Positions 1,345 through 34,100 of a DNA stretch of 34,865 bases are shown here, piece by piece. Positions within the stretch are counted from its first letter, which is position 1; the number at the start of each line of letters is the position of its first letter. The notes below the pieces were generated by a model. The model searched no databases. It was given only the letters and a program-made list of their open reading frames with translations, and had not been told where the DNA came from. The translations under genes were made by a program, and so were the position numbers. The DNA comes from Candidatus Sungiibacteriota bacterium (GTDB lineage: Bacteria; Patescibacteriota; Minisyncoccia; Sungbacterales; HO2-52-23), in contig JACPMG010000026.1 in NCBI GenBank assembly GCA_016186095.1, forward strand, positions 1-34,865. The letters run 5' to 3'.

Positions 1345-1411
1345 TATCGTGTATCGTGTATCGTGTATCGCGTATCGCGCTATCTTGCGTTACACGCTAC
1401 ACGTTATACGA
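1345..1411. repeat. Inverted heptamer-repeat element (TATCGTG/TATCGCG arm; TACACGN arm)
   Basis: TATCGTG x3 + TATCGCG x2, then TACACGC TACACGT TATACGA; abuts the recA start codon. Confidence 0.85.
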
Positions 1412-1417
1412 GTCGCA

Positions 1418-16472: not shown

Positions 16473-16542
16473 AGCTTGTAGACATTAGCTTATAGACGAA
16501 AGGCCATCTAACCTACAAGCTACCAGCTAAAAGCTATCTTCC
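16473..16542. repeat. Inverted heptamer-repeat element (AGCTTGT / ACAAGCT)
   Basis: AGCTTGT AGACATT AGCTTAT AGACGAA ... ACAAGCT ACCAGCT AAAAGCT, all in one 7-nt register. Confidence 0.85.
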
Positions 16543-19396: not shown

Positions 19397-20728
19397 TCAT
19401 CCTATATTCTTCCAATGACCCTCCTGTCTCACTAGTAGTCCTTCGGCTCGCTCCGGATGCGCCATGATCTCCTTCACCGCTTTCTCCATCCGCATGAACT
19501 GGCTTCCTTTGACTAAAATTAAATCACCGGGCTGGATTATGGGGTCTAAAGCCCGACCGGCCGATTCGGAATCATCAAATTTAAAAACTTGATTATGCTT
19601 GACTCCTCGAGTTAATGCCTCATCGGCAATAAATTTTGCTCGAGGGCCTACGCAAAAGAACAAATCGACAAATCCGGCAGCTTGATCCCCTACTGCGCGA
19701 TGCGCCTGCTCCGAAAACCTCCCTATTTCAAGCATATCACCAAGCACGGCAATTTTTCTTCTTCCGGGAAGGGCTTTTAGCGTATCCAAAGCCGCGCGCA
19801 TGGCTTCGGGGGCAGCATTATATGTGTCGTCAAGGATAAAAGAATTTTTTATACCTTTTAACAATCTTAATCTGCCCGGCGGCGGTGCATAATTCTTTAT
19901 GGCCTCGGAAATCTCCACTAAATTTAATCCAAGAGTGATACCTACGGCTGCAGCCGCGGCTGCGGCAATGGCTTGCGGTTCTCCGAAAGCATCGTGCAGA
20001 TGAAACGGGACCAGATGTCCTTTGTGCTCAATTTTGAATGAAATGCCTTCCGGTATGTCGCCCAACTCCGCGTCTTTGGAAATTGATAATTGATAATTGA
20101 TAATTTTTATCTCCGCATGCTCTTCCCGCCCAGAGCGAGACTCGCCAAAGGCGGCAAATCCAAAAGTGAGAACTTTGCTTTTGGTCTTATCCTTCATATC
20201 ATACACCGCATAATCGTCGTGATTTAGGATCGCTTGGCCGTCCGCGGGCACGGCCTGTACAAGTTTTGCCTTTTCTTTGATTATCTCCTCCGGATCTTTG
20301 AAAAATTCCACATGCACCGGAATATCGCCAACCGCAGTAACCACGGCTATATTTGGCTTGGCGATGGAAAGAAGGTAATCCATGTCGCCCGGATGATCAA
20401 CGCCATACTCCAGCACCAGTATCTGCGGATACTGGTTGCGGACAGACGCGGACAAACGCAAAATAACGCGGACAAACGCGGACAGCCATTTAAAAATATT
20501 TTTGCCATAATGTGAAATTCCCAAAATCGTGAGGGGCAAGCCGATTTCGTTATTATAATTTTTCTCCGAAGTCCGCACTCTGTATTTCTTTTTGAGCACG
20601 CTAAAAATCGCCTCTCTAGTTGAGGTCTTTCCCACCGATCCGGTAATGCCGATAATAGTCGGCCTATATTTCCGGATCGCGGCTCTTGCCAAAACCGCAA
20701 GAATTTTTTGAAGTATTGACTTTTTCAT
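19397..20728 (-). CDS. murF: UDP-N-acetylmuramoyl-tripeptide--D-alanyl-D-alanine ligase (MurF-type Mur ligase)
   Basis: GITGSVGKTSTREAIFSVL, ILDDTYNAAPEAMRAALDTL, VLGDMLEIG, VKGSQFMRMEKAVKEIM. Start set at MKKSILQK. Confidence 0.93.
   Translation of the reverse strand: MKKSILQKILAVLARAAIRKYRPTIIGITGSVGKTSTREAIFSVLKKKYRVRTSEKNYNNEIGLPLTILGISHYGKNIFKWLSAFVRVILRLSASVRNQYPQILVLEYGVDHPGDMDYLLSIAKPNIAVVTAVGDIPVHVEFFKDPEEIIKEKAKLVQAVPADGQAILNHDDYAVYDMKDKTKSKVLTFGFAAFGESRSGREEHAEIKIINYQLSISKDAELGDIPEGISFKIEHKGHLVPFHLHDAFGEPQAIAAAAAAAVGITLGLNLVEISEAIKNYAPPPGRLRLLKGIKNSFILDDTYNAAPEAMRAALDTLKALPGRRKIAVLGDMLEIGRFSEQAHRAVGDQAAGFVDLFFCVGPRAKFIADEALTRGVKHNQVFKFDDSESAGRALDPIIQPGDLILVKGSQFMRMEKAVKEIMAHPERAEGLLVRQEGHWKNIG
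20081..20108. repeat. Heptamer repeat (AATTGAT x3 plus partial) inside murF
   Basis: AATTGAT AATTGAT AATTGAT AATTTTT; encodes INYQLSI in the murF frame. Confidence 0.85.
20125..20154. repeat. Second CCGCC..GGCGAG..CTCGCTC palindromic element, inside murF
   Basis: Minus strand GCCGCCTTTGGCGAGTCTCGCTCTGGGCGGG, matching the core of the 17812-17856 element. Confidence 0.55.
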
Positions 20729-23228: not shown

Positions 23229-23256
23229 AGTTACCAGTTACTGGTTACTAGTTATT
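23229..23256. repeat. Heptamer repeat (AGTTACN x4) at the rsmH stop / ftsL start
   Basis: AGTTACC AGTTACT GGTTACT AGTTATT. Confidence 0.85.
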
Positions 23257-24125
23257 AACGCTGCCCGAAGTTTTGCCGAACGGGCGCGGGGATTGACGCG
23301 TATTTCCGCCGCATCTGCCGCAACCGGTTTCTTGGTCAACAAGGTCAATACCCCTTCTTTTTGTTTCTCTTTTAAAAAAATCTTAACCATACGATCCTCC
23401 AATGAATGAAATGATATTATGACCAACTTTCCTTGTGGTTTTAACAGCGCCGCAGAATCCCTTAGCCCTTGCCCTAAATTATCCATTTCGTGATTTACCG
23501 CTATGCGCAGGGCCTGAAAAGTTCTGGTCGCCGGATGAATTCTGCCTCGCCTGATTCCGGGGACACATCGCCCGACAATGTCAGCAAGCTCGTCAGACGC
23601 GGAAACTCTTTTAGAGTTGCGCGCTCGGATAATACCTGCGGCGATCCTTCCGGCAAATCGTTCCTCGCCGAATCTTCGAAGGATATCCTCAATTGCCTTC
23701 CGCGGCCAAGTATTGATAATTTCTGATGCAGTGAGCGTATTTTCATAAATGTTATACCGCATATCCAGCGGCTCGTGTCTTAGAAATGAAAATCCCCTGC
23801 CACTCTCCTCAAGCTGATGCGAACTAAAACCAAGATCAAAAAGGATTCCATCAATCTTGTCCAAACTATATTTTCTTGCAATAGATTTAATATCTGCATA
23901 ATTGCCGCATTCCAGAACTAGATTTTTTGTCTTTTTACTTTTATCTTTTAACTTCGCTATAAGCGCGCAGTCCCAATCAATACCCAGTAGCTTTCCTTTC
24001 GGCCCGATTCTTTCCAGAATTGCTGTCGCATGTCCTCCGCCGTTGATGGTCGCATCTACATACTTCTCTCCAGGTTGGGGATTGAAAATAGAAAGGACTT
24101 CGTTGAGTAAAACAGGTCTATGCAC
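23238..24125 (-). CDS. rsmH: 16S rRNA (cytosine(1402)-N(4))-methyltransferase
   Basis: HRPVLLNEVLSIF, VDATINGGGHATAIL, GILFDLGFSSHQLEESGRGFSF, ISFHSLEDRMVK. Confidence 0.97.
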   Translation of the reverse strand: MHRPVLLNEVLSIFNPQPGEKYVDATINGGGHATAILERIGPKGKLLGIDWDCALIAKLKDKSKKTKNLVLECGNYADIKSIARKYSLDKIDGILFDLGFSSHQLEESGRGFSFLRHEPLDMRYNIYENTLTASEIINTWPRKAIEDILRRFGEERFAGRIAAGIIRARNSKRVSASDELADIVGRCVPGIRRGRIHPATRTFQALRIAVNHEMDNLGQGLRDSAALLKPQGKLVIISFHSLEDRMVKIFLKEKQKEGVLTLLTKKPVAADAAEIRVNPRARSAKLRAALITSNQ

Positions 24126-24128
24126 ACA

Positions 24129-24254
24129 TAATGTCTAATTCCTAATTTCTAATGTCTAATAAAATTCCGAATGTCCAATGTCAAAATTTAGTTATTAGAC
24201 ATTTTAACATTGAAAATTTCATTAGAAATTAGGCATTAGAAATTAGAAATTTTA
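24129..24254. repeat. Large inverted heptamer-repeat element (18 heptamer positions)
   Basis: TAATGTC TAATTCC TAATTTC TAATGTC TAATAAA ... CATTAGA AATTAGG CATTAGA AATTAGA in one register. Confidence 0.9.
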
Positions 24255-24686
24255 GTAAAGCCCCAACTCTCCCAATTTCTCCGCGATCATATCCGTATTT
24301 TTTTCAACTTCGCCTTTGTAACTTTCCCATCGCTCCTCATCCCAAAGCTCAAGGCGGTTATGAACGCCGGCAATTACCGTCTGCTGTTTCAAGCCGGCAT
24401 AATTTTTTAAATAGTCCGGAATCAATATCCGCCCTAATTGATCAAGTTCCACCTCCACTGCCCCGGCAAGCATAAGTCTTAAAAAACTTCTGGTGTTTCC
24501 CTGGCCCACGGGAAGCTGGCCCAGTTTTTCGGTCAACTTCTGCCACTCCTGCATGGGATAAAGAAAAAGGCAATTATCAAGGCCCCGGGTAAGTACTGCC
24601 CGCTCGCCCAGTTCTTTCCTCAATTTCGATGGTATGGCGAGACGTTTTTTGGGATCTAGGGTGTGTTTGTATTCTCCTATTAACAT
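24252..24686 (-). CDS. mraZ: Transcriptional regulator MraZ
   Basis: GEYKHTLDPKKRLAIPSKLRKEL, duplicated AbrB-like fold, first gene of dcw cluster. Confidence 0.95.
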   Translation of the reverse strand: MLIGEYKHTLDPKKRLAIPSKLRKELGERAVLTRGLDNCLFLYPMQEWQKLTEKLGQLPVGQGNTRSFLRLMLAGAVEVELDQLGRILIPDYLKNYAGLKQQTVIAGVHNRLELWDEERWESYKGEVEKNTDMIAEKLGELGLY

Positions 24687-33224: not shown

Positions 33225-34100
33225 CTAGATTTTGTTTATTGATCCGAATAATTTTAACTTCCCTTTTACAAGCTCTTTCATGGCCTGAATCGCTGACCTG
33301 TCCAATTTATACATTGCCAGTTCGTCAACTTCATCTTTTAAACTTTGTTTCAGGGCGTTTACAAACGCCGCCCGGAGTTCAGTATTGATGTGGATATTAG
33401 CTATGCCCGCTTTAATCGCTGCGCAAATTTGCTCATCCGAGATTCCGGAGCCAGCATGAAGCACCAGCGTCACTTCTTCGGGAACCACCTCACGAATCGC
33501 CTTAATTCGCTCAATATCCAAGGTAGGTTCATCTAACGAAATACCATGGATATTGCCTACCGCAATCGCTAAACGATCCACACCCGTTTTTTCAACAAAT
33601 TCTTTTGCCCGTGTCGGGTCAGTGTAGTCTTCCGGTTTCACTTCAATTTTCTCATTTTGGATTTGCGATTCCCCCCTCAAATATCCCAGTTCCCCCTCAA
33701 TACTAGGTTGTAGGTTGTAGGTTGTAGGTTGTAGATGGGCGTACTCTACTATTTCTTTTGTACCATGGACGTTTTCTTCAAAAGATTTTGCGGATAAATC
33801 TATATGCACCGAATCGTATCCCGCATCAATAGCGGCTTTGGCACTTTCCATGGATTTATGGTGATCCGCATTCAAAAAAATTTGAATTCCGTACTCTTTG
33901 CGCAGCACATCTCTCAAAGCAACAGCTTCCGCATATCCCAAATGCTTGGCCTCCCCCTCAGAAGTTCCAATAATAGCCGGCGCACCAACTTCTTTGCATG
34001 CCTCCACAATGGCACGCATTTGATCTAATTCAGAAGCGTTAAAATGGCCGGTGGCCCAATGCTCTTTGGCTGCTCTTGATAAAATTTCTTTTAAGTTCAT
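33225..34100 (-). CDS. fba: Class II fructose-bisphosphate aldolase
   Basis: GHFNASELDQMRAIVEACKEVGAPAIIGTSEGE, NADHHKS, IEGELGYLRGE, LVLHAGSGISDEQI. Confidence 0.92.
   Translation of the reverse strand: MNLKEILSRAAKEHWATGHFNASELDQMRAIVEACKEVGAPAIIGTSEGEAKHLGYAEAVALRDVLRKEYGIQIFLNADHHKSMESAKAAIDAGYDSVHIDLSAKSFEENVHGTKEIVEYAHLQPTTYNLQPSIEGELGYLRGESQIQNEKIEVKPEDYTDPTRAKEFVEKTGVDRLAIAVGNIHGISLDEPTLDIERIKAIREVVPEEVTLVLHAGSGISDEQICAAIKAGIANIHINTELRAAFVNALKQSLKDEVDELAMYKLDRSAIQAMKELVKGKLKLFGSINKI
33704..33738. repeat. Heptamer repeat (TAGGTTG x4 plus partial) inside fba
   Basis: TAGGTTG TAGGTTG TAGGTTG TAGGTTG TAGATGG; encodes LQPTTYNLQP. Confidence 0.9.

Follow-up and report, generated by a model that had tools for sequence, protein, structure and literature searches.

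Palindromic repeats built of 7-nt words in the mraZ-rsmH spacer of a Candidatus Sungiibacteriota genome and at dispersed loci of its relatives

The spacer between mraZ and rsmH in a draft genome of Candidatus Sungiibacteriota (G000; 680 kb, 92% complete) is filled by a palindromic element whose arms consist of degenerate 7-nt words, and arrays of the same period recur across this genome and its relatives, where sister species often keep an array at the same site with a different unit in it. The element was found in a stretch of 34,865 nt (the window), which is contig 17 of the assembly. The reading that we prefer, with a probability of about 0.5, is that several families of dispersed, non-coding palindromic repeats with degenerate heptameric arms have been inserted time and again at tolerant sites, where slippage and recombination reshaped them. 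The mraZ-rsmH spacer would then be one copy of such a repeat, belonging to one of several repeat families within this small-genome (Patescibacteria-like) family. Copies would have entered repeatedly where they are tolerated (operon-internal spacers and protein surface loops), and slippage, together with recombination between copies at different places, would subsequently let their arms gain, lose and swap heptamers, giving each genome its own vocabulary. Older copies would be lost or replaced, leaving the sites in place while the words change, and no function for the host would be required.

The minus-strand RNA of the 126-nt spacer is predicted to form a single end-to-end hairpin (-43.2 kcal/mol, z -9.0), as compared with -17.1 +/- 2.9 kcal/mol for shuffled sequences, none of which (0/200) is equally stable. 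Between the rsmH start and the mraZ stop, the left arm (24129-24160) reads TAATGTC, TAATTCC, TAATTTC, TAATGTC and a final TAAT, and the right arm (24220-24251) reads CATTAGA, AATTAGG, CATTAGA and AATTAGA, in agreement with the original prediction. That prediction had also described 18 heptamers in a 7-nt register unbroken over 126 nt. AAT is found at 24130, 24137, 24144, 24151 and 24158, and then at 24163, 24170 and 24177, i.e., the register slips by 2 nt at 24163; only some nine units can be recognised clearly. As the right arm uses the complementary word, its phase is a matter of choice. The heptamer arms stand; one palindromic heptamer element with its register intact is not supported. An GAAATTCC-AATG motif related to the centre of the element recurs beside the arms of other copies. 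A near twin of the whole element, centre included, lies at about position 5859 of L123, a contig of a Proteobacteria MAG from Lac Pavin, which could reflect horizontal spread or a binning error. Table 1 lists the features of the window.

Table 1. Period-7 loci and neighbouring genes in the window
Feature	Positions	Strand	Basis
Spacer palindrome, TATCGTG x5 with inverted CGTGTAG-class arm	1345..1417		Inverse arm 17/20; fold z -3.0
Spacer palindrome of CTTGTAG/CTACAAG words; 6 nt between its end and the following GTG start (16545)	16474..16538		Repeat scan
AATTGAT array in MurF-like ORF (peptide IINYQLSI)	20081..20105	-	Repeat scan; structural homologues
AGTTACY-class array at rsmH 3' end	23229..23257		Lag-7 scan
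rsmH, downstream gene, start at most 4 nt from the element	23238..24125	-	Closest solved structures 1wg8, 1m6y
Weak, degenerate TTTTNNC period-7 stretch in rsmH (lysine-rich stretch)	23925..23954		Lag scan
Whole palindromic element, mraZ stop to rsmH start, filling the spacer	24126..24251	-	Fold of minus-strand RNA; closing helix over 97% of spacer
Left arm, TAATNYC heptamers (GTC, TCC, TTC, GTC)	24129..24160	+	Sequence inspection; repeat scan
Centre, 2-nt phase slip first (AATTCCG at 24163), then AATGTCC, AATGTCA	24161..24219		Sequence inspection
Right arm, CATTAGA/AATTAGG units, reverse-complement class of left arm	24220..24251	+	Repeat scan; inverse-arm scan
mraZ, upstream gene	24252..24686	-	mraZ relatives across the phylum
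TAGGTTG array in class II fructose-bisphosphate aldolase (FBA), loop peptide LQPTTYNLQP	33704..33734	-	Insertion relative to solved homologues

Within the window, lag 7 alone yields repeated strong tandem segments. Five further loci had been proposed to have the same architecture; those at 1345, 20081, 23229 and 33704 pass the lag-7 scan and the one at 16473 is a CTTGTAG/CTACAAG palindrome, but the arrays at 20081 and 33704 are single arms within ORFs, with no inverted arm. Such single-arm ORF arrays could equally be products of local slippage.

For the genome-wide scan, tandem segments scoring at least 13 were counted as arrays and lags 5-13 were compared, with N runs excluded in the scan covering the relatives. 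The sampled stretches of G000, totalling 280 kb, contain 40 lag-7 arrays as compared with 0-4 for any of the other lags tested; Markov-1 simulations yield about 2. Ten relatives (about 350 kb) have 21 lag-7 arrays and at most 4 per other lag, summed over genomes, with densities ranging from 0 (G004, G005 and G007) to 18 per 100 kb (G011). In the sister species G009 and G010, which belong to one genus, we found 27 and 75 lag-7 arrays, respectively, and at most 9 at other lags. The predicted period-7 excess over a composition control is thus confirmed, and it reaches into relatives. As in heptanucleotide LSSRs, 7-nt tandem units exceed those of other periods and are enriched in intergenic DNA (13-17 of the 40 G000 arrays fall in the 11% of sequence outside ORFs, ORFs serving as a proxy for genes); about half of the arrays lie inside ORFs. 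Arrays do adjoin start codons and enter ORFs, as had been claimed. It had further been claimed that the loci share the 7-nt period, often with inversion, and not the sequence. The period, the inversion and the variety of units hold, but the arrays are not purely sequence-agnostic: their units form limited, recurring classes (including TAATNYC, AGTWACY, CTTGTAG, TGTATCG and AAAGACA), and 27 pairs of G000 arrays have identical units (up to rotation and complement) vs. an expected mean of 3.4 and maximum of 7. Each genome has its favourites: mixed TAATNYC in G000, TAATTCC in G011 and AAGTTCT in G010 (22 of 75 arrays).

Orthologous sites differ in the presence of these elements. The mraZ-rsmH spacer is short in four relatives (8, 10, 10 and 16 nt in G012, G003, G005 and G007, respectively) and contains palindromes of unrelated words in G000, G001, G011 and G010 (126, 145, 81 and 70 nt), the one in G010 being of the TACGAAT family and not strictly of period 7. 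The spacers of two further genomes hold inserts that are unrelated to heptamers and have terminal inverted repeats (177 nt in G002, L032; 189 nt in G008, L037). Elsewhere, G010 has an AGAACTT palindrome of 108 nt, and the matching place in G009 has 16 nt. A palindromic spacer family of about 150 nt, GATGCCAATC...GATTGGCATC, was also seen at several loci (L247, L248 and L249 in G010; L233 and L234 in G009) and is absent from the orthologous sites.

Arrays in ORFs are typically in-frame insertions in enzyme loops, as are Rickettsia-type palindromic elements at tolerant loops. Compared with solved homologues, they add residues in FBA, in IscS (cysteine desulfurase, two sites) and in Alr (alanine racemase). 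The PcrA array takes the place of a loop and, on balance, adds hardly any residues, and neither it nor the MurF array is borne out as a clear net insertion. The aldolase loop encoded at 33704..33734 contains CTACAAC in G000 and G002, CTACAAA/G in G012, AATTTTC in G008 and AGAATCA in G010, and has no insert in seven genomes, among them G009, the sister of G010; the PcrA and IscS loops likewise have different heptamers in different genera. Since FBA, PcrA and IscS were picked for having an array in G000, it is the recurrence in other genera that is informative. The PcrA loop of G009 (L269), L238, L239 and their G010 partners have inserts no longer than about 120 nt, with CCCCGTTAGA...TCTAACGGGG at their ends, which look like a MITE-type family; one of these inserts is in frame within PcrA. 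In L017 (IscS residues 147-170), there is a GC-rich palindromic insert together with the word CCGCCGGAGGCGGACCAGCCTCTGGCTGG, which G003 has at the same place.

A purely local origin of the arrays is an unlikely alternative: heptanucleotide LSSRs would start as chance seeds and lengthen through replication slippage, the polymerase footprint would favour 7 nt, and sister species would differ through mutation and homogenisation within arrays. Bacteria have been known to have an excess of heptanucleotides since Mrazek 2007, who proposed the polymerase footprint for the 7-nt preference, and period-7 dominance is a hallmark of bacterial LSSRs (as cited in PMC4679880 and PMC4692102); the footprint as the reason for 7 nt is a guess. 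Pure arrays (e.g. TAGGTTG x4.4 and CTACAAC x4.4) resemble slippage products, and the divergence of G009 and G010 (about 80% nucleotide identity) is large enough to scramble a 7-nt unit. However, the units are not independent, with common words at many loci per genome (AACTTAG in 22 of 75 G010 arrays), and slippage alone does not make inverted arms or common hairpin loops. An inverse arm lies within 150 nt of 19 of 41 arrays in G000 and 11 of 22 in the relatives, as compared with 2 and 1, respectively, in controls 1 kb away; this inverted-repeat structure of the inserts is another feature of Rickettsia-type palindromic elements. The copies in G010 have the loop sequence as well as the arms in common, in both orientations, and the FBA array of G010 has no counterpart in G009. 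We infer that the elements move by copying rather than arise locally, with slippage and recombination as the reshaping processes.

Nineteen G009 arrays could be mapped to G010, and 13 of them have an orthologous period-7 array there, with a similar unit in only 2. In aligned (mostly coding) sequence, 7 of 8 sites are shared vs. 1.2% at random aligned positions (Fisher p 9e-13, a value that overstates the case against simple tolerance hot spots because the random control was not loop-matched), and between aligned blocks 6 of 11 are shared vs. 7 of 66 (p 0.002). This retention of the site, usually with a different unit, goes beyond what had been predicted. It could come about if array sites were fixed addresses that are actively overwritten, such that the dominant heptamer of a genome (e.g. 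AAGTTCT in G010) is copied into pre-existing sites, with period and place inherited, sequence swapped, and unlinked short arrays replaced in concert genome-wide; we regard such overwriting as quite unlikely. With copies that are inserted, reshaped and lost, as we prefer, the repeats look like fast-turning-over genomic parasites or mutational by-products.

It is also rather improbable that the elements are functional at the RNA or translational level, i.e., that a hairpin brings stop and start codons together for coupled translation, or that the repeated words near the start codon serve as a protein-binding site. Elements end about 10 nt or less from start codons, but this adjacency is expected if the ancestral spacer is about 10 nt long. 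Stable folds (by ORF-based gene proxies) were found in 32 of 69 co-directional, 10 of 17 convergent and 0 of 18 divergent G000 spacers, and end-to-end stable hairpins are common in the co-directional ones. The absence from divergent spacers is not predicted by random insertion alone, and the bias fits tolerance or use at the level of transcription; some of the stable hairpins look like ordinary terminators, and in relatives the bias is weak. Against a function, the presence and the word of an array vary freely among relatives and about half of the arrays are within ORFs. In addition, there is no co-variation between arms: arms match their own partner no better than swapped arms from other loci (19.3 vs. 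23.1 for TAATNYC; 13.4 vs. 15.1 for AGAACTT in G010), so individual base pairs are not being preserved, and this speaks against an RNA structure under maintenance. Because arms match those of other loci at least as well as their own partner, they are drawn from a shared vocabulary and are neither fresh inverted copies nor kept by selection in a base-paired register; base-pair selection is thereby rejected, and so is the snap-back copying of an arm into its partner. A hairpin that juxtaposes stop and start is possible as the reason why long inserts survive in operons. Two simpler descriptions were also discarded: coding arrays are not non-palindromic as a class (the AGTWAC-class arrays of IscS, Alr and PcrA are palindromes within themselves), and the elements are no all-frame stop cassette (both strands of the CGATACA and AAAGACA arrays are free of stops).

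Cyanobacterial STRR heptamers are tandem and intergenic; to our knowledge, an inverted, multi-unit, in-ORF architecture has not been described for them, and the likeness is by description only, in a host group that appears to differ. Closer in period are heptanucleotide LSSRs such as the GGGAATC repeats of Xanthomonas and the GGGGAYT repeats of Nostoc (Rehm 2015, PMC4692102), which have in common with the present arrays a dominant period of 7, mainly intergenic location, degenerate units, some inverted pairs (Xanthomonas), and length and sequence that vary between related species at the same genes (PMC4692102). Unlike them, the arrays here have many unit classes per genome, inverted arms in about half of the cases, about half of their number in ORFs, and units replaced at kept sites. 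The TAACTGA repeats of marine Beggiatoaceae, for which translational regulation was proposed (MacGregor 2015, PMC4679880), are also 7-nt units at many loci upstream of essential genes, most ending a few nt from the start codon; however, they have one unit, direct and strand-oriented with a single inverted case, whereas here there are several units, palindromic and often in ORFs, and TAACTGA is the unit of none of the 40 G000 arrays. In behaviour, the repeats resemble the palindromic elements of Rickettsia and Wolbachia (RPE and WPE), which according to PMC3767692 are inserted in spacers and, in frame, in ORFs at solvent-exposed positions, two genera differing in the element reported for one and the same gene region. 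The likeness is one of behaviour; RPEs form families of 100-150 bp, with no 7-nt period in the description of PMC3767692. Tandem repeats of Borg elements (PMC9879509) also evolve fast and arise independently at loci in spacers and ORFs, but they are perfect direct repeats of archaeal elements, not palindromic, with in-ORF units divisible by three. The most economical reading would place the present repeats with heptanucleotide LSSRs by period and would have them work like Rickettsia palindromic elements. As far as PMC4679880 and PMC4692102 show, the heptanucleotide excess has had only the polymerase-footprint guess since 2007, and this genome family makes it testable through inverted arms, own vocabularies, in-frame homes in core enzymes, and shared sites with different words. 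The arrays visibly supply new sequence to protein loops, and hairpins to spacers, in organisms considered extremely streamlined; gene calling and comparisons based on spacers can be misled by them.

Period 7 is not exclusive. A second palindromic spacer family has TACGAAT words at spacings of 7, 8 and 11, with ends CTAC...GTAG, and adjoins start codons (L012:448-545, L011:14184-14256, L027:479-559 and the mraZ-rsmH spacer of G010); it has 12+12 matches in G000, 17+21 in G010 and none in seven relatives. As this family is common at mixed spacing, the phenomenon in general consists of palindromic inserts in which short words are repeated, most commonly with a period of 7 nt. REP elements carry a GTAG tag. 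The ends of the TACGAAT family recall it (for REPs, see PMC3733652), and Y1_Tnp is found in 10 of 13 genomes of the family, including G000, as might be expected of REP-like elements moved by a RAYT/Y1 (IS200-like) transposase. Such mobilisation is nevertheless highly unlikely: across the 13 genomes, the copy number of Y1_Tnp (PF01797) shows no correlation with array density, which counts against RAYT and the linked transposase of a REP/RAYT system. G010 has many arrays and no Y1_Tnp match, G004, G005 and G007 have 2-4 matches and no arrays in the sample, and no common tetranucleotide tag was seen on the heptamer elements.

Beyond the family, an unselected phylum-wide mraZ sample shows a modest lag-7 excess (10 vs. 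0-6 at lags that are not multiples of 7). Where the mraZ-rsmH spacer is long, it is often, across the phylum, an inverted repeat whose sequence is unrelated to the others, which would speak for a functional element; the spacers of the more distant genomes L201, L202 and L218 hold palindromes of 7-nt words (by eye; lag 7 in L202). Chance, low complexity or assembly artefact has a negligible probability, for although the words are AT-rich and most genomes are metagenome assemblies, other lags are almost empty, reversed-pattern controls are near zero in this genome family, the one-contig genome G003 has arrays, and the TAATDYC class occurs in isolates (e.g. Epilithonimonas caeni and Mucilaginibacter segetis). 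A few phylum genomes match the reversed-pattern control through pure TAATCCC or TAATCTC arrays. The TAATNYC class is found in 21 of 240 phylum genomes and in at least 116 stretches of GTDB genomes spread over many phyla of bacteria; in some of these stretches, inverted copies are separated by 70-160 nt. Pure CGTGTAT x3 is found in G000 only among the 240 phylum genomes.
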